Shown here piece by piece: positions 3,916-57,939 of a DNA stretch of 57,939 nucleotides. The DNA is from an uncultured Bacteroidales bacterium (GTDB lineage: Bacteria > Bacteroidota > Bacteroidia > Bacteroidales > ML635J-15): the NCBI GenBank assembly GCA_937982115.1, contig CALJNE010000049.1, forward strand, positions 1-57,939, given 5' to 3'. Position 1 is the first letter of the stretch; each line of letters opens with the position of its first letter. The notes under the pieces were generated by a model. The model was not told the DNA's origin and did no database searches. It saw only the letters and a list, made by a program, of their open reading frames with translations. A program made the position numbers and the translations under genes.

Positions 3916-5634
3916 TTACTCTTTGATAAATCTAATCGAGTAGGTGAAATTTGCTGATTTCAATTGCAATAAATATAAACCTTTTTGTAATCCTTCAATT
4001 TCAATATAACTCAAATTATCCGAAATAGTTCCTTCTAATAAAATTTTTCCAGTTAAATCAATTATCTGGTAGTTTAGGGCAGGTTCTAAAATTTCAATTT
4101 TAAGATAATCATTTGCCGGATTTGGATAAATTTTTAATGTCGAGTTTTGATAGTAATTGGTTATTGATGTGATATTATTGGAATTTATTGAAAACCAATT
4201 TACTGCATGATTTTCATTCTCGTTTAAAATTATAAATAACTCGTCGGAAACCAATCCTGGTTTTTCTACGCTTATATAATAAGAACCGAAAGCAAGATTT
4301 TTAAATTCAAAATATCCGCTTCCGTCGGTTAATCTAAAATTCATAACATTTTTATTTGAATTTTTTAGAAGCACAACAGTGTTAGCTGCCATGTCTTCTT
4401 CAAAATCTGTTTGTCGAAACCAGTTTCTTAAAAATATATTTTCTTCAAAGCTTGCAGTATCAGTATATCTTACAAAGCCGGATATTTTTCCGTTGTTTAT
4501 TCCAACTTCATAATAGGGATATAAAAAACTCTGAAAAATAGTATCTGAATAAAGATTTATTAAAGAAGCATCCTGCCAGAAAACGTTATTGCTTTGATAA
4601 ACAGGAGAATATTTTGGAAAATAGATAGTATCTATATCAAAATACGGGATTAAATGTGCTAGATATTGATTGTTTCTGTCAAGATTTTCAAATTTGTAAG
4701 AACCATCTATAATTTCGCTTTGGGCAATAGCTTTAAAATATTCTCCGGATCTTTGGTATAATACAGCCATACCTGATGGAAGCAAAGTAGCCCCGGCTTT
4801 TACAATTCCGTATAAATTAGAAATATTTGGCACAACCTGATTAACTGATATATTTTTACATATTGTTGAAGAGCAATTATAATGAGTTTGAATTGTTAAG
4901 CAAACTTCATAATTTCCGGGCTCACGATAAATATGCAAAGGATTACGGGCAAACGAATAATTCCCGTCTCCGAAATCCCAATAAAAATAATCTTCTTCGC
5001 CATGAGAATTATTTACAAATCTATATAATCCGAAAATTTGCTGAAAACTTAAAGAGTCAATACTAAAATCTGCATTGCAGTTGTTGTTGTATCCTATTGT
5101 TACACAATCTGTACCATAGCAGTTATCTCCATTTGTAAGAGTAACACAATAAGTCCCTGGCGATAGGTTTTGAATCTCAGCACCTGTTTGTCCATTGCTC
5201 CAATATGCAAAATAGCAACAAGGTATATTGGAATATCCGTAAACATAAGCCCTGCCATTGTTATAATTAGGGGCTGTAGCATTTTGTGTTGCAAAGTAAA
5301 TATCTAAATAACAATTCGGTGATGAAGCCGGAATACCAACTAAAATTTCTTTTTCTATGTAATCAAAGCAACCTTCTTCTGTGAATATGCTAAGCCTAAC
5401 AACATATCGTCCGGGATTAGAATATAAATTAGATGGATGTTCCTGATAGCTTGTATTTCCATCTCCAAAATCCCAGTGTTGATAAATCTGTCCTTCGTCC
5501 GATATCTGAGATTGATTATAAAATTGTATATGTAAAGGAGAAGTTTCCTGGTAAATAAAATTAGCCTCACATCCTGCAATTGCAGGATTAAAGCTAATAA
5601 TTACAATTGCCAATATCAAAAGAAAATGCCTCAA
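3916..5634 (-). CDS. secreted PKD-repeat protein with T9SS type A sorting domain
   Basis: A 572-residue exported protein. A Sec signal peptide occupies about residues 1-20 (hydrophobic core then NPAIAG). Two PKD domains follow, each with the hallmark WDFGDGN (about residues 49-95 and 215-265). Between them is a Cys-rich SprB-like repeat stretch (YWSNGQTGAEIQNLSPGTYCV). A SdrD/carboxypeptidase-regulatory-like segment lies near 425-465. The last 75 residues are a type A T9SS C-terminal domain (IYPNPANDYLKIEI, ending in FTYSIRFIKE), so the mature protein should be secreted and anchored at the cell surface. It sits 8 bases downstream of the barrel-ended anti-sigma gene and is the third gene of that ECF operon. 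It may therefore be part of what the sigma system senses or controls; that link is inference from position. Confidence 0.85.
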   Translation of the reverse strand: MRHFLLILAIVIISFNPAIAGCEANFIYQETSPLHIQFYNQSQISDEGQIYQHWDFGDGNTSYQEHPSNLYSNPGRYVVRLSIFTEEGCFDYIEKEILVGIPASSPNCYLDIYFATQNATAPNYNNGRAYVYGYSNIPCCYFAYWSNGQTGAEIQNLSPGTYCVTLTNGDNCYGTDCVTIGYNNNCNADFSIDSLSFQQIFGLYRFVNNSHGEEDYFYWDFGDGNYSFARNPLHIYREPGNYEVCLTIQTHYNCSSTICKNISVNQVVPNISNLYGIVKAGATLLPSGMAVLYQRSGEYFKAIAQSEIIDGSYKFENLDRNNQYLAHLIPYFDIDTIYFPKYSPVYQSNNVFWQDASLINLYSDTIFQSFLYPYYEVGINNGKISGFVRYTDTASFEENIFLRNWFRQTDFEEDMAANTVVLLKNSNKNVMNFRLTDGSGYFEFKNLAFGSYYISVEKPGLVSDELFIILNENENHAVNWFSINSNNITSITNYYQNSTLKIYPNPANDYLKIEILEPALNYQIIDLTGKILLEGTISDNLSYIEIEGLQKGLYLLQLKSANFTYSIRFIKE

Positions 5635-5642
5635 AATACGAA

Positions 5643-7238
5643 CTAAAATTTATATGATATTCCTGTTCTCAATCCATATCTCATTGAACGCAAATCAAGG
5701 GCATAATTTCCATTAAAACTATTAATAACATTGCCTCTAAAATATGGCTCTACATAAATACCAAATCGTTTGGTTATCGAGTAATTTAAGTTCAAGGAGA
5801 TGTAATAATCTAAATTAAATTTTCTAAATGGAATTTCAGCTATCGGCGAAATTTCGTTAGAATACACATTATAAAAATTACCTTTTTTATCAATTAACAT
5901 TCCTCCAATAATTCCGGCTTTGGGAATAAATTCCAGCTTACCTGTTTTAAATGAATAACCAAAAACAACAGGTATTTCGATATACGACAGTCTGCTTTCG
6001 GCTGAAAAACTCAAATTCTTTAAAACAGTATCATTTCTTGCTATCGAAATGGAATCTTTAAAAACAAAATTTATTGAATCAACATGTGGAATGTAAACAA
6101 TATTGCCGTTCAAATATTCATCGAGATCCAAAAACCAAACAGTATCGTAAATCCACACTGAATTATCGAAATATTGAAAATCGGTGATAGTATTTATCTC
6201 TGTTTCTACTTTATCAAAATTTATTTTTTGACGATTATAAAAATAAGAAATACCACTGTTTATATATAATCGTTTATAAAAATAATCAAGTCCAAGACCA
6301 AAACCAAATGAGTTGTTGTCTTTTAAATTTTGTGAAAATGTGTTAAATTCATTTTGAATTTCAGGATTATTTAATTCAAATCTATATTTGTTGCTAAAGT
6401 AATAATCATAGTATAGACTTAACCTGAAAAATGATTTATCCTCTACAATCGGAACTCCTCCAAAATCATAACCAATAGTATCTCTTTTTATTTCATTATT
6501 AGCAATAAAGTTGTTCAATAAACTATCGGTTGGGATTTTTAATTCCGGATATCTCAGATATAAGGGTTTATTTAAGTTGAGGAAGTGAGGAATTTTAGAG
6601 TAAGCTTGTATATCTCTGGTTTGTAAATCATTTTTGTTTTCAGTTATAAATGAATTGTAATTAATTTCATTTTCAACTATTTTAGAAACCTCATTTTTTG
6701 TATTTTCCGTAAAAACGATATTGGTTGTCGTTAATGGAGTTGTTTTTGAGTTATCTGTTATTAAGATATTATCATCTAAAAATTCAGTATTGTTGACTTC
6801 TTGATTAATAGGTGTAATTGTATTTTGTTCGTCTTCCGATAAGTTATTTAATTCAGGGATGTCATTGTTTTGAGTTTGAGAGTTGTCATTAACGACAATT
6901 TCTCTTCCACCGTCGAAGTTAAAAAATTTGAATTCGGTATTGTTAAAAAATATTACTGAGCCAACTATTGAAGTGATAATGAGTCCGGCGTAATAGATAT
7001 TAAAACTGAAAGGAGAAAAATGTAAGAATTTGTTGAACCAAAGAGCAGTGGCAATTCTTCTCCAAACAGCATCAGACACATTCATTTTAAAGCCTCTGAA
7101 CTTTTCCTGATAAAGATGCTCGAGTCTCATGCCGGAAATTTGATTTTCAATTCCCGACCACACCTTTTCAGAAGGCTCCAGGCTGAAATCTTTGAATTCA
7201 TCCCTGAAAATATCTTCTATGTTTCCTTTCTTACTCAT
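5643..7238 (-). CDS. envelope-spanning anti-sigma-like protein with C-terminal outer-membrane barrel (Dma-like)
   Basis: A 531-residue protein in three parts. Residues 1-70 are cytoplasmic-looking and contain the same 24-residue motif twice (from about 7 and 39; spacing [ILF]-x7-F-x2-F-x4-S-[ED]-x-V-W-x2-I), interpreted as a sigma-binding segment. Residues 80-98 form one membrane helix (IYYAGLIITSIVGSVIFF) with no cleavable signal. After about 150 residues of Asn/Thr/Glu-rich, probably disordered linker comes a beta-barrel from about residue 255 to the end, with the terminal aromatic GISYKF typical of BAM substrates. This matches the dual membrane-spanning anti-sigma (Dma) architecture reported in Bacteroides. 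I chose the ATG at 7238, which overlaps the sigma stop by 8 bases; a TTG at 7247 would add three residues. Anti-sigma activity is inferred from architecture and operon position. Confidence 0.8.
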   Translation of the reverse strand: MSKKGNIEDIFRDEFKDFSLEPSEKVWSGIENQISGMRLEHLYQEKFRGFKMNVSDAVWRRIATALWFNKFLHFSPFSFNIYYAGLIITSIVGSVIFFNNTEFKFFNFDGGREIVVNDNSQTQNNDIPELNNLSEDEQNTITPINQEVNNTEFLDDNILITDNSKTTPLTTTNIVFTENTKNEVSKIVENEINYNSFITENKNDLQTRDIQAYSKIPHFLNLNKPLYLRYPELKIPTDSLLNNFIANNEIKRDTIGYDFGGVPIVEDKSFFRLSLYYDYYFSNKYRFELNNPEIQNEFNTFSQNLKDNNSFGFGLGLDYFYKRLYINSGISYFYNRQKINFDKVETEINTITDFQYFDNSVWIYDTVWFLDLDEYLNGNIVYIPHVDSINFVFKDSISIARNDTVLKNLSFSAESRLSYIEIPVVFGYSFKTGKLEFIPKAGIIGGMLIDKKGNFYNVYSNEISPIAEIPFRKFNLDYYISLNLNYSITKRFGIYVEPYFRGNVINSFNGNYALDLRSMRYGLRTGISYKF

Positions 7239-7788
7239 TTCGAGCAATTTTTTTCAATTCAGTTAATTTTTCTTGCAACAAAGCTCTGGCTCTGCTATAT
7301 TGCGATTTAGAAGTTCCAACGCTGATATTAAGCATTTCTGCAATTTCGCGATGTTTAAATCCTTCGATCGCAAATAGGTTAAAAATAATTTTAAATCCCG
7401 GCGGAAGCATATTTATGCTTCTCAGTAGTTCCTCTCTGGTAAACTCTTCATTGTCAATTTCGTAGTCCCCGTCAATAATTTGAGTTTCTTGAATACTGTC
7501 AAAATCTTTATGAAAATCATGTTTCAATGAATTTCTGTAATGACTTATGGCAGTATTCACCAGAATTTTTTTCATCCAACCTTCAAAAGAACCTGTTTCA
7601 TTATATTGATCAATTCTCGTAAGAATTTTCACAAATGCTTCCTGCAGGATATCTTCTGCATCTTCACGAGACTTACTGTATCTGTAAGCAATTCCCATGA
7701 AGAGTGAGGCATACCTTTCGTAAAGGCATCTTTGTGCCCTTTTATCCATTTTTCGGCAGCCCGCAATTATTTCGTTTAAATCCTGCAT
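7231..7788 (-). CDS. ECF-type RNA polymerase sigma factor
   Basis: A 185-residue sigma-70 family protein with only regions sigma2 and sigma4. Sigma2 covers about residues 20-90 (CLYERYASLFMGIAYRYS, EDAEDILQEAFVKI, GSFEGWMKKILVNTAI). Sigma4 covers about 125-180 (MLPPGFKIIFNLFAIEGFKH, REIAEMLNISVGTSKSQYSR), with the helix-turn-helix in IAEMLNISVGTSKSQYSRAR. It heads the operon with the barrel-ended anti-sigma-like gene and the PKD protein. It is clearly paralogous to the sigma factor at 56778-57311, sharing GSFEGW, NTAI/NNAI and IAEMLNI in register. A CAAC-N18-GTCT element 17 bases upstream of its start suggests autoregulation. Confidence 0.93.
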   Translation of the reverse strand: MQDLNEIIAGCRKMDKRAQRCLYERYASLFMGIAYRYSKSREDAEDILQEAFVKILTRIDQYNETGSFEGWMKKILVNTAISHYRNSLKHDFHKDFDSIQETQIIDGDYEIDNEEFTREELLRSINMLPPGFKIIFNLFAIEGFKHREIAEMLNISVGTSKSQYSRARALLQEKLTELKKIARNE

Positions 7789-55164: not shown

Positions 55165-56781
55165 TCAGTTTCTTACAAGCTGCAGGGCCCCTTTTTGCTC
55201 AATTTTCACACTATATTTATCCTCTCCTCTTATGATGTAATAATATAATCCTTCGCTGGCTTCGTTTATCCCGCTTACTTTCCCGTCCCAACCATTATTT
55301 ATGTCATTATTTGTCCAGACAATTTCTCCAAAACGGTTCATTATTATAATACTGTAATTGAAAATTTCTCCGTCATAAAAAACTTTAAATTCATCACCAA
55401 TTCCATCACCGTTCGGAGTGAATATATTAGGCACTTTTAATGTATTACTTGATATTAAAATATCAATAGAATAAGATGAACTGCACTTTGTCCCTTTCAC
55501 TATTGCCAGCAACTCAACGGTATATTTTCCGTCGTTTAAAAACTCAAACTCAAAATTATCATCTTCACTTACATTTTGTCCATTGATTTTCCAGATAAAC
55601 TGTAGTTCGTCTTTCTTTTCGTAACCGGAGTCATCGAGTTTTGAGTAATTTCTGAAGAAATATTTTTTATTGTTTAATAAATCCTTTTCTGCAATGAAGA
55701 ATGGGTTAATGTAAAGACTGTCTTTAATTAATATTGTGTCGTGTAGGTAGCAATTATTGGCATAATTAACTTTCAGTGTGTAAATTCCGGAATTCAAATT
55801 ACTGAAGATACCTGTTCTTGATTCATATTCATTGTTTAATACGAAATTCTTAATTTGAGTAGAATTTTCTGCTGTAATAATTAATTTTCCGTTTGAACTT
55901 GAACAGAAATTCGGACTCGTTACTTTTTTCAACTTTGGTTTTTTTACCACTTCGATTTCTTTTATAATAGTGTTGTTACAAACTAAATTAGTAGAGGTGA
56001 TTTTTACTTGTTTTGTTCCCGGATTGTGGAAGTTATACAATTTATAATTTGAATTATCGGTTTGTTTGAGGCTGTAGTCGTCTCCAAAAACTGTGAAACT
56101 TTGTGTTCCTTTTCCGGTAATTTTTAGGCTAACTTCCTGACCTTCACAAATTTTATCCTGCGATAAACTTACATTAAATTCAGGGATTTCGTTAAATCTG
56201 ATTATTACTGTATCTCGATAAACAATCTCGGAATCTGTTTTTTGATAGATAACTTTGTAATTGCCGAATTTTTCTGCTTTGAAGTTTAACTTGTTGTTGC
56301 CGGATGTAAAATAAATGCCTTCCGGAATTATCAGGTAATCAATCTTGTCATTATAGTTAATGCTAATTTCTTTACCGCAGATAAGAGTGTCATTGATGTT
56401 AAAAACATTAGCTTTCGCAAAAACGATATTTTTATTTTGTTTTTCTGGCTTAGGCGTTACTATAGGTTTGGGATCTTCAATTTTCTGAATTGGGTTATTG
56501 TTTTTTACGAAATTATTCTCTTGGGGATAATTATTTTCAGATTTGTTCTGGCTTTCAATGATTACCGGGTTTATTTCTTCAATCGCTTTTTCTGGTAATA
56601 GGAAGTAAACAGCAATAGGAATAATTGTGAGAGCTGCAATGAAATAGTACTTATTGAGATTTAAAAATTCCCAAAAAGTTTTACGCGGATAATTTTTTCT
56701 GATATTCTCAAAAACCTGTTCAGATGGAATATCAGTGTAATTTTCCAGTTTTTGTTTTAATATGTTATCAAAATCACTCAT
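55165..56781 (-). CDS. membrane-anchored anti-sigma-like protein ending in a T9SS CHU_C sorting domain
   Basis: A 538-residue protein. Residues 2-30 carry the same spaced motif as the barrel-ended protein at 5643-7238 (FDNILKQKLENY, then IPSEQVFENI), interpreted as a sigma-binding segment. One membrane helix lies at about 45-62 (YYFIAALTIIPIAVYFLL), preceded by Lys/Arg (N-in). There is no cleavable signal. A Pro/Lys/Asn-rich linker leads to Ig/PKD-like beta domains (about 135-440) with several Cys. The last ~90 residues are a gliding-motility-type CHU_C domain (LKVPNIFTPNGDGIGDEFKV, IIMNRFGEIVW, NGWDGK, GLYYYIIRG), a T9SS signal. It overlaps the upstream sigma gene by four bases. Anti-sigma function is inferred. 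Confidence 0.82.
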   Translation of the reverse strand: MSDFDNILKQKLENYTDIPSEQVFENIRKNYPRKTFWEFLNLNKYYFIAALTIIPIAVYFLLPEKAIEEINPVIIESQNKSENNYPQENNFVKNNNPIQKIEDPKPIVTPKPEKQNKNIVFAKANVFNINDTLICGKEISINYNDKIDYLIIPEGIYFTSGNNKLNFKAEKFGNYKVIYQKTDSEIVYRDTVIIRFNEIPEFNVSLSQDKICEGQEVSLKITGKGTQSFTVFGDDYSLKQTDNSNYKLYNFHNPGTKQVKITSTNLVCNNTIIKEIEVVKKPKLKKVTSPNFCSSSNGKLIITAENSTQIKNFVLNNEYESRTGIFSNLNSGIYTLKVNYANNCYLHDTILIKDSLYINPFFIAEKDLLNNKKYFFRNYSKLDDSGYEKKDELQFIWKINGQNVSEDDNFEFEFLNDGKYTVELLAIVKGTKCSSSYSIDILISSNTLKVPNIFTPNGDGIGDEFKVFYDGEIFNYSIIIMNRFGEIVWTNNDINNGWDGKVSGINEASEGLYYYIIRGEDKYSVKIEQKGALQLVRN

Positions 56782-57311
56782 TTGAATCTTTCATTAATCA
56801 TTTTAATCAATGCTTCTCTTGCCTTTTTTAATTGTGTGCGGCAAGTAACCTCATTGATATTTAACATTTCGGCGATTTCGGCATGTTTATAACCTTCCAC
56901 CACATACAAATTGAAAACTGTTCTGTAACCAACGGGTAACAGTTTTACCAGTTTTAAAATTTCTTCGGCACTTAATTCTTCGATAACGCTATTGTTTATA
57001 TTCAGGTTTTCGTGCATAACATCATCCATATTATCAAAATCAAATTTCCTTTTTGATTTTATGTAGTTAATAGCGTTATTTACTGTTAATCGCCTTATCC
57101 AACCTTCAAAAGAACCTTTAAATTCATATTCAGTAATCTTTTCAAGAATTTTTATAAAACAATCTTGTAAAAGATCTTCTGCTTCTTGTCTGTCTTTTGT
57201 ATATCTTAAACATATACCGAAAATGACTGGAGAGTATAATTTGTACAATTCATCAAAAGCCTTATGAGACTTTTTCTGACATTGTTTTATTAACTTCTCG
57301 TTATCAATCAT
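56778..57311 (-). CDS. ECF-type RNA polymerase sigma factor
   Basis: A 177-residue two-domain sigma factor. Sigma2 is ELYKLYSPVIFGICLRYTKD, QEAEDLLQDCFIKILEKI and GSFEGWIRRLTVNNAINYI. Sigma4 is LLPVGYRTVFNLYVVEGYKH followed by AEIAEMLNINEVTCRTQLKKA. It aligns in register with the sigma factor at 7231-7788, so the two are paralogs. Its stop overlaps the start of the CHU_C anti-sigma-like gene (ATGA), implying fixed stoichiometry. It has the same CAAC-N18-GTCT element upstream as its paralog, and no TAnnTTTG box. Confidence 0.93.
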   Translation of the reverse strand: MIDNEKLIKQCQKKSHKAFDELYKLYSPVIFGICLRYTKDRQEAEDLLQDCFIKILEKITEYEFKGSFEGWIRRLTVNNAINYIKSKRKFDFDNMDDVMHENLNINNSVIEELSAEEILKLVKLLPVGYRTVFNLYVVEGYKHAEIAEMLNINEVTCRTQLKKAREALIKMINERFK

Positions 57312-57323
57312 TTTTCTGTATTA

Positions 57324-57349
57324 AGACAATCGGGAAAATAAAAATGTTG
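57324..57349 (-). promoter_or_regulatory. candidate ECF-type autoregulated promoter (second copy)
   Basis: On the minus strand the element is CAAC, one base, TTTTT, twelve bases, GTCT, ending 12 bases before the sigma ATG. Element order and spacing are the same as at 7806-7831, although the intervening bases differ. It lies in the 48-base gap after the CHU_C gene at 57360. Confidence 0.6.
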
Positions 57350-57359
57350 TTTCGGAAAA

Positions 57360-57939
57360 TTAATTTTCTCGCATTAAATGTAAAACTCCTTGTATATTAT
57401 ATTCTTTATCATCCCAACCTGTGGCTTTGATAATGTAATAATAAACTCCTGGAGCTGCTTTAGTTCCGCCTTCGAGGTTACCATCCCAGCCGGCTTCGTA
57501 ATCCTGCCAGTTTTCCCAGGTATAAACAACTCTACCGTAACGATTTACGATTTGTCCTTTGAAGGTTTTTAAAGTTCTTGCCTTAACCTGGAAAAAATCA
57601 TTTATGCCGTCGCCGTTCGGAGAGAAAATATTTGGTATTTCTAACATACTTTCATCGTCAACTTGAATGCATGCTTCGAGTCGAGCAGTATCTCTACATT
57701 CGGGTAAGTCTCTATTCATTACTATTAGGAATGGTTCATAACATCCTGATTTGGTATAGGTGTGTTCAACCATCGGGTCGCAGTTTTTGAGTTTAGTACC
57801 ATCCCCGAAGTTCCATTCACAGCGTTTACGAACATCATCGTAAATTGAATTATTAAGGAATGTAACAACAGCATTTGGTGCAACAAGGTTTTCGAGATCA
57901 ACAGAGGCTGCAACTTCCATTTGTGCATCAATCATGCCT
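57360..57939 (-). CDS. C-terminal part of a PKD/CHU_C surface protein (5' end outside window)
   Basis: The frame is open to the window edge, so the gene starts outside; the ATG at 57935 is probably internal. The visible ~192 residues hold a PKD-like domain (CEWNFGDGTKLKNCDPMVEH, SGCYEPFLIVMNRD). A CHU_C gliding-associated C-terminal domain follows (LEIPNIFSPNGDGINDFFQV, GQIVNRYGRVVYTW, AGWDGN, GVYYYIIKATGWDD, GVLHLMREN). It should be secreted by T9SS and belong to the adhesin-like PKD family. It lies on the same strand, 48 bases before the ECF sigma gene, whose partner ends in the same kind of domain. Confidence 0.88.
   Translation of the reverse strand, partial: GMIDAQMEVAASVDLENLVAPNAVVTFLNNSIYDDVRKRCEWNFGDGTKLKNCDPMVEHTYTKSGCYEPFLIVMNRDLPECRDTARLEACIQVDDESMLEIPNIFSPNGDGINDFFQVKARTLKTFKGQIVNRYGRVVYTWENWQDYEAGWDGNLEGGTKAAPGVYYYIIKATGWDDKEYNIQGVLHLMREN

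Follow-up and report, generated by a model that had tools for sequence, protein, structure and literature searches.

An ECF sigma factor gene overlapping the gene of an anti-sigma-like protein with a type IX secretion sorting domain: a candidate link between secretion and cargo production in Bacteroidales

Introduction

Why would a protein that looks like an inner-membrane anti-sigma factor end in the sorting signal of a secretion system of the outer membrane? The question is raised by a gene pair on contig CALJNE010000049.1 of an uncultured Bacteroidales bacterium (assembly GCA_937982115.1, lineage ML635J-15), a stretch of 57,939 nucleotides that was analysed as a whole and is called the window below. 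In this pair, the gene of an extracytoplasmic function (ECF) sigma factor overlaps that of a membrane protein whose C-terminus is a type B sorting domain of the type IX secretion system (T9SS).

A prediction made earlier from the letters of the window alone (the original prediction) described this arrangement, and interpreted the second protein as an anti-sigma factor that reads the state of type IX secretion. The observation is confirmed, and the interpretation is partly supported by the comparative analysis reported here. We consider it rather probable that the pair forms a sigma/anti-sigma switch coupling T9SS capacity to the production of T9SS cargo. The arguments for such a switch come from sequence: the linkage of the two genes, an anti-sigma-like N-terminus shared with other ECF-linked proteins, the topology read from hydropathy, an intact sorting domain, and a promoter-like motif whose distribution in relatives is rich in cargo genes.

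Results

The gene pair in the window

The pair and its immediate surroundings consist of the following features.

56778..57311, minus strand: ECF sigma factor, 177 amino acids, Sigma70 regions 2 and 4 (open reading frame list and domain search)
55165..56781, minus strand: anti-sigma-like membrane protein with a C-terminal T9SS type B sorting domain, 538 amino acids (domains, alignment and model)
56653..56781, minus strand: its residues 1-43, cytoplasmic anti-sigma-like segment, helices 2-13 and 21-30 (sequence profile, AlphaFold2)
56590..56652, minus strand: its residues 44-64, single transmembrane helix, predicted N-in (hydropathy, AlphaFold2)
56431..56589, minus strand: its residues 65-117, linker, probably disordered (predicted local distance difference test, pLDDT, below 50 at 62-116)
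55441..56430, minus strand: its residues 118-447, immunoglobulin (Ig)/PKD-like beta domains in a stack (domain search, model, fold search)
55177..55440, minus strand: its residues 448-535, CHU_C / TIGR04131 T9SS type B sorting domain (Pfam, NCBIfam)
57322..57350, minus strand: promoter-like motif ACAAC-N16-TTGTCTTA, 10 bp ahead of the start codon of the sigma gene
57360..57938, minus strand: T9SS type B cargo gene (PKD and CHU_C), 3' part only, the gene being cut by the contig end

The two open reading frames (ORFs) lie on the minus strand and share four bases, 56778-56781, exactly as the original prediction had placed them. The sigma factor matches Pfam Sigma70_r2 (E 3.8e-16) and Sigma70_r4_2 (E 2.7e-15), and the features that define ECF membership, PF04542, PF08281 and TIGR02937, all score above cut-off in this 177-residue protein. 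In the partner, the type IX C-terminal domain that had been claimed is recognised above the curated cut-offs by both PF13585 CHU_C (61.8 bits for a cut-off of 27, residues 448-535) and TIGR04131 (45.6 bits for a cut-off of 35, residues 449-536). The rest of the proposed architecture, a single N-in helix followed by a linker and Ig/PKD-like domains, also held up, since hydropathy, charge bias, the AlphaFold2 model and a PKD_3 match (barely above cut-off) agree on it. The model, computed with 18 aligned sequences, has a mean pLDDT of 77.7 and a predicted template modelling score of 0.41; it shows helices at residues 2-13, 21-30, 36-42 and 44-61, low confidence at 62-116, and beta strands from there to the C-terminus. 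A Foldseek comparison of the model with the PDB gave Ig-like arrays, the best among the matches listed being the grappling hook protein GhpA, a resemblance that carries nothing specific on the function of the protein. Finally, the truncated CHU_C cargo gene lies 48 bp upstream of the sigma gene, and an upstream CHU_C gene recurs in relatives.

Linkage of the two genes in relatives

A search of 61 genomes (the window's own and relatives) yielded 25 best loci, which are referred to as family A. The sigma gene is found in 23 of them, and the other two (L024 and L033) begin at contig ends. As a control, 60 other CHU_C loci were taken from the matches listed in a 296-genome sample of the phylum. 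None of these holds a sigma ORF (the CHU_C ORF is shown in 59, its start being cut off in five). The original prediction had proposed linkage in homologs as a check, and the check came out in its favour; a chance neighbourhood of sigma and CHU_C genes was rejected on the same 23 loci.

A second, paralogous T9SS-ended pair, family B, with partner proteins of 411-440 amino acids, is present in the own genome (G000:C6) and in relatives. Its sigma linkage was seen at all ten loci L059-L068, and at L055 as well. The own-genome copy (L059:3521-5354) keeps the linkage with a CHU_C match under the cut-off, as if this end were being repurposed. Further away, family A-like proteins occur in another family of the order (G039, G450 and G546, the first of which was part of the query alignment). 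At the level of the order, the sigma gene stands directly upstream in 14 of the 28 returned loci, covering nine families when that of the window is counted; a sigma ORF is held by 15 of the 28, ten others are genes cut at the edge of the locus, and three have no sigma ORF. Phylum-wide searches with the two family profiles, in which four to seven candidates were scored per genome, returned mostly ordinary cargo and no further full-length members beyond the own genome among the matches listed; a search based on the sigma factor was used instead (see below). A scan of viral contigs with the single window protein found no relatives.

Draft genomes of the genus tend to break in or beside the cargo genes that adjoin the pair (L446, L447, L448 and several family A contigs). 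The ends of contigs C95 and C74 of G014, the closest relative, share letters, which hints at repeated or continuing cargo sequence.

The inner end: an anti-sigma-like segment before the membrane helix

The strongest N-terminal hydrophobic stretch of the window protein begins at residue 44-46, with a net charge of +2 in the 15 residues before it and of -3 in the 15 residues after it. The original prediction had recognised a sigma-binding-like motif ahead of this stretch. With Pfam, residues 1 to 44 have no match up to an E of 1. A profile whose only training set was the N-termini of 45 ECF-linked proteins without a CHU_C end does recognise residues 1-43, with an E of 5.1e-6 (Z=1000), so that the claim stands as a likeness of sequence. 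At E<0.01 this profile matches 20 of 20 family A proteins, 16 of 17 phylum-level members, 8 of 11 order-level members and 3 of 10 family B proteins; at E<1 all ten family B N-termini are matched. Controls were clean: no match was obtained among 58 proteins in which the segment had been shuffled and the rest kept, nor among 59 ordinary CHU_C cargo proteins. From this homology and the gene order, we infer that the N-terminal segment binds the sigma factor.

The position of the helix separates the family from ordinary cargo. Its start lies between residues 36 and 55 in all 20 rows of family A, whereas 46 of the 59 cargo proteins have theirs by residue 17. Judged by hydropathy, the window protein has no usual N-terminal Sec signal peptide, its hydrophobic stretch starting at residue 44, after the anti-sigma-like segment. 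The original prediction had also considered that the helix might prove to be a cleaved signal peptide; it lies too far in for a usual one. The late helix, together with the profile match in every family A protein and in no cargo protein, led us to reject the window protein as plain cargo.

The outer end: a conserved type B sorting domain

In the 18-row alignment of family A, 19 of the 28 invariant columns fall within the last 91 residues (hypergeometric p 8e-10). Residues F5, P7, N8, D10, G11, D14, G36, W49, G51, G61, Y63, Y65 and G78 of the domain are kept in 20 of 20 family A rows, and the same positions are conserved in 59 cargo domains. By these residues, the sorting domain of family A is intact. 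For comparison, the type B domain of Flavobacterium johnsoniae SprB is described as having five motifs, each required for secretion; the available text of the same study states that type B substrates rely on PorP/SprF-like shuttles, and that orphan type B substrates exist (PMC12618676).

The machinery that such a domain would address is present in the own genome, which has SprA and 11 PorP/SprF matches. SprA was found in 17 of 17 genomes of the CHU_C-type set from the sigma-based search, in 24 of 25 further genomes of this type, and in 28 of 33 genomes of the barrel or other type, these 33 having been hand-picked from the 54 loci with other end types, which by eye were mostly barrel-like. The window contig, whose side upstream of the pair is cut, gave no PorP/SprF match. 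In G039 such a gene is close to the pair, and the row of genes (L057, G039:C101) reads CHU_C cargo, PorP/SprF, a membrane-transporter-like gene, ECF sigma factor and T9SS-ended anti-sigma. Around the phylum-level members, T9SS genes are not generally enriched.

A promoter-like motif and a predicted regulon

The sequence CAAC-N16-[T/C]TGTC (motif class CAAC-N17-TGTC) immediately precedes the sigma gene in 23 of 23 family A genomes. It ends 11-20 bp before the sigma start codon in 22 of them and 38 bp before it in G028, where the start was set by hand. Among 179 other ORFs of the family A loci the motif precedes a single one, which heads a cargo operon. With AAC at -35 and GTC at -10, the motif looks like the autoregulatory promoter of an ECF sigma factor.

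A stricter form, RCAAC-N16-TTGTCWTA, gave 77 matches in 18 genomes, versus 38 for the reversed pattern. A subgroup of seven related genomes contributes 54 strict matches versus 12 reversed, with 5-12 per genome. Sixty of the 77 sites were fetched with their downstream DNA, and 48 of these have the prefix RCAACGAAA. Thirty-seven of the 48 stand ahead of operons other than that of the sigma gene, at a distance of 22-55 bp in 27 cases, and five stand ahead of the sigma gene; for a further five the next 450 bp contain no gene, and the remaining site falls within an ORF. Thirty-four of these 37 operons begin with a signal-peptide-like protein, and 21 carry a T9SS domain within four genes according to local profiles, nine more running off the contig. 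Sites with another prefix fell inside ORFs in 6 of 12 cases.

The first or second complete gene after the motif was then scored, sigma and anti-sigma genes being excluded. A T9SS domain is present in 22 of these 64 genes (14 type A and 8 type B by NCBIfam; the two types are disjoint by local profiles). In the same loci, such a domain is carried by 10 of 104 signal-peptide-like genes (p 2e-4), and by 12 of 324 neighbour genes overall (p 2e-11); these p-values, being pooled, overstate independence, as orthologous operons recur between genomes. The ten background genes are type A by NCBIfam, type B not being among the 25 families listed for the 104. Taken genome by genome, the excess is found in G006 (p 0.001), G013 (p 0.028), G017 (p 0.019) and G022 (p 0.0007). 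The local type A profile had been built from nine operon proteins and one window protein; the counts were rechecked with NCBIfam, and those among the 64 genes were the same.

The genes behind the motif include a BspA-type leucine-rich repeat protein, FISUMP proteins, PKD arrays and a 3737-residue protein, several of them with type A or type B domains. At L382, L395, L407 and L410, the operon behind the motif consists of a small type A protein, two signal-peptide-like proteins and a FISUMP protein (domains were scanned in L382 only).

Because the motif count of the own genome is not above its control, the regulon was deduced from relatives. Contig L448 of G014 carries three consecutive type B cargo genes; a one-mismatch motif precedes both of those whose starts are on the contig, and an exact site precedes the next operon. 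On G000:C40 of the own genome, a one-mismatch motif lies 23 bp before a signal-peptide gene that is followed by a cargo-like gene (P-proprotein and PKD), and this site is identical letter for letter in G014. We conclude that T9SS cargo is abundant in the regulon predicted from relatives; the pair's own sigma factor would be the one that reads the motif.

Other partners of the same group of ECF sigma factors

The window contains a second pair of this kind.

7231..7788, minus strand: another ECF sigma gene, with a partner that is apparently barrel-ended
5643..7247, minus strand: protein with two tandem anti-sigma-like segments, a helix, a linker and an apparent C-terminal beta-barrel, resembling the Dma proteins discussed below

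The barrel of the 5643-7247 protein was read from the sequence, Pfam giving no match for it. The contig thus shows both end types, a T9SS-ended pair and an apparently barrel-ended one. The 5643-7788 pair adjoins a type A T9SS cargo gene at 3916-5634 (Por_Secre_tail).

Seventeen aligned sigma factors served as the query for a search of GTDB genomes, from which the best 80 of 505 relatives were retained. Within these 80, the sigma gene was called in 76, and 71 have a co-oriented gene at most 200 bp downstream. Seventeen of the 71 downstream proteins match CHU_C and 17 match TIGR04131 (both at E<=0.01), and 22 match OMP_b-brl_2, a model for outer-membrane barrels. T9SS-ended loci from this search bear titles such as Bacteroidales, Flavobacteriales and Crocinitomicaceae, and L279 belongs to a named strain, Crocinitomix catalasitica ATCC 23190. 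Together with the order-level results, this led to the rejection of a design private to one genus. Three loci (L240, L227 and L234) are titled Sphingomonadales, Chlorobiota and Chryseobacterium gleum; their sigma factors fall among other Bacteroidota, and the labels may be those of wrong bins.

In a tree of 100 sigma factors drawn with a quick method, the label 'CHU_C-ended' needs 7 changes, versus a mean of 32 when labels are shuffled. The starred branches nevertheless force at least three changes of end type, and window_7231, the sigma factor of the window's barrel-ended pair, is placed together with two CHU_C-ended rows. On this tree, the outer ends track the sigma clades, yet appear to have been swapped more than once. 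The sigma factor of L289, from Crocinitomicaceae, is sister to the family B clade, and its 431-residue partner has no CHU_C match; its outer end may have been lost or changed.

Discussion

How could a sorting domain at one end of a protein inform a sigma factor at the other? We propose that the N-terminal segment would hold the ECF sigma factor at the inner membrane, while the Ig-like stack would carry the type B sorting domain to the outer membrane and offer it to the receptors of real cargo, the SprA translocon and a PorP/SprF-type shuttle. A free translocon or shuttle would capture this tip, and pull or move it outward. As the inner-membrane end cannot leave, the protein would become strained or exposed, and would then be degraded. 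The released sigma factor would transcribe its own gene together with surface-protein operons rich in T9SS type A and type B cargo. The pair would in this way be a T9SS checkpoint, in which a tethered client competes with cargo, and capture of its tip leads to proteolysis, release of the sigma factor and more cargo. What suggests a checkpoint is that a cargo sigma factor would be restrained by a protein ending in a T9SS cargo signal. That the protein contacts the T9SS is our supposition here, as is the sign of the response; the opposite sign, with release when cargo clogs the system, is possible, and fits a cargo regulon less well. A precedent exists in flagella, where export of FlgM frees sigma-28; FlgM is small, soluble and wholly exported. 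Like FlgM, the window protein would itself be handled by an export machine, and its sigma factor would transcribe the substrates of that machine; unlike FlgM, it is predicted to be fixed in the inner membrane. By analogy, the switch would be the T9SS counterpart of the FlgM checkpoint.

The partners of related ECF sigma factors suggest a broader scheme, a design spread across Bacteroidota, with a single inner anti-sigma module and interchangeable outer ends, barrel or T9SS signal. That this design and the checkpoint both hold is a tentative proposition, to which we give distinctly less confidence than to the switch itself.

A number of results weigh against a switch that works through the T9SS. 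Some concern the regulon: the eleven genomes outside the seven-genome subgroup have 23 strict motifs versus 26 in the reversed control; 7 of the 37 non-sigma operons show no T9SS domain without running off the contig; the own genome has two strict motifs, one ahead of the sigma gene and the other within an ORF; and one-mismatch matches number 4 versus 19 for the control in the own genome, and 10 versus 13 in G014. Others concern the sorting domain. Position N13 of the cargo consensus differs in 19 of 20 family A rows, and the anti-sigma gene of G011, as called, shows no CHU_C end (at L039:5191-6429, on G011:C10, a family A anti-sigma frame has an in-frame TAA and adjoins a cluster of CHU_C cargo genes). 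The own-genome copy of family B matches CHU_C under the Pfam cut-off, and two residues are lost in ten of ten other family B rows (the own copy not included), the N of NGDG and the D of the ND that comes next. Phylum-level members have a median CHU_C score of 41.8 bits versus 56.6 in cargo, as scored with a local profile that had the domain of the window protein among its seeds. The last group concerns the machinery: the co-occurrence with SprA is not significant (39/40 versus 28/33 without duplicates, p 0.08); 16 family A neighbourhoods, several of them cut short, yielded no PorP/SprF gene; and among 17 phylum-level CHU_C-type loci, another CHU_C gene is nearby in 3 and PorP in none.

Several of these points are what would be expected of a periplasmic sensor. 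The CHU_C domain would then be an Ig-like module that never crosses the outer membrane and binds a periplasmic ligand, such as unexported cargo or the periplasmic face of the shuttle, and the sigma factor would be released after cargo build-up or envelope stress, as with ordinary membrane anti-sigma factors. Family B is the reason why this stays a serious rival: like many phylum-level members, its CHU_C domains have lost core residues and kept both the sigma linkage and the helix after the N-terminal segment. The missing shuttle gene in the 16 neighbourhoods, and the barrel-ended and short anti-sigma types found downstream of the same ECF group, point the same way. A generic ligand module, however, would need no such constraint as that which makes the sorting domain the most conserved part of family A (the final 91 residues hold 19 of the 28 invariant columns), and the many T9SS cargo genes of the predicted regulon are also against it. 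On balance we regard this explanation as unlikely, while giving it more weight than the two that follow.

Alternatively, the tip could be exported once and stay on a PorP/SprF-like protein, making a surface-anchored sensor that spans both membranes and responds to an external or mechanical cue, like Dma, rather than to secretion flux. A precedent is the type B protein PG1035 of Porphyromonas gingivalis, described as bound to PorP on the surface with a C-terminal domain that is apparently uncleaved (PMC9143113, available text). The changes of end type in the sigma tree, at least three by the quick method, and the grouping of window_7231 with two CHU_C-ended rows would suit this idea as well. 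Taken alone it leaves the T9SS cargo of the regulon unexplained, though the state of the surface could be the cue, and we hold it to be quite improbable. Least of all do we believe that the helix is a late-cleaved signal peptide of an ordinary T9SS cargo protein whose N-region is long and whose co-transcription with an ECF sigma gene is fortuitous: the sorting domain and the position of the gene behind another cargo gene would agree with this, whereas the helix start (36-55 versus by residue 17 in 46/59 cargo), the anti-sigma profile (20/20 family A versus 0/59 cargo) and the 60 other CHU_C loci devoid of a sigma ORF make it very improbable.

How does a sigma/anti-sigma switch tied to the T9SS compare with described systems? 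The nearest are the Dma proteins of Bacteroides, whose deletion phenotypes depend on the cognate sigma factor (PMC13088901, available text, on which the following comparison with Dma rests). The barrel-ended relatives reported above have the architecture described for Dma. Like a Dma, the window protein adjoins an ECF gene and has an N-terminal sigma-binding-like segment, one helix, a long periplasmic part and a C-terminus directed to the outer membrane. Dma proteins are defined by their beta-barrel end, whereas the window protein ends in a T9SS type B sorting domain; and in place of a disordered tether its periplasmic part is mostly an Ig-like stack, with low confidence at residues 62-116 only. 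Dma1 and Dma2 affect vesiculation and the genes of polysaccharide utilization loci, while the regulon predicted here includes T9SS cargo. The window protein is therefore not a Dma, though it may work like one; the likeness of its N-terminus was established with the profile of other ECF-linked proteins.

With type B substrates such as SprB, served by SprF, the protein shares a CHU_C/TIGR04131 C-terminus and conserved core residues, as far as the available texts describe them (PMC12618676, PMC9143113). Unlike these substrates it has no usual signal peptide, carries its helix after a cytoplasmic segment, and is ECF-linked; unlike SprB/SprF, no shuttle gene was found near the pair in the 16 family A neighbourhoods. 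PorA of P. gingivalis is a T9SS-domain protein reported to influence SigP through PorXY (PMC7712824). It likewise ties a T9SS C-terminal-domain protein to an ECF sigma factor serving the T9SS; in the available text of that work, the domain protein is separate from the two-component regulator, machinery genes are the targets, and no anti-sigma factor bears the domain. In Flavobacterium psychrophilum, an ECF-type promoter motif is described as driving T9SS machinery genes together with a sigma/anti-sigma pair (PMC9723704, available text). The original prediction knew of no T9SS-ended anti-sigma factor, and none was found in the open-access literature, which was the field of the search, preprints and most subscription papers lying outside it.

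In the available parts of this open-access literature, sigma control of the T9SS is described for machinery genes, and not for the matching of cargo synthesis to secretion capacity. If the switch proposed here is real, a single protein would link the outer-membrane translocon directly to a sigma factor, and would match cargo to T9SS capacity with one part. The predicted promoter is a ready reporter for it. The dual-membrane anti-sigma design would then be modular, with the same inner end and different outer probes, and each outer end would report on a different process of the outer membrane.

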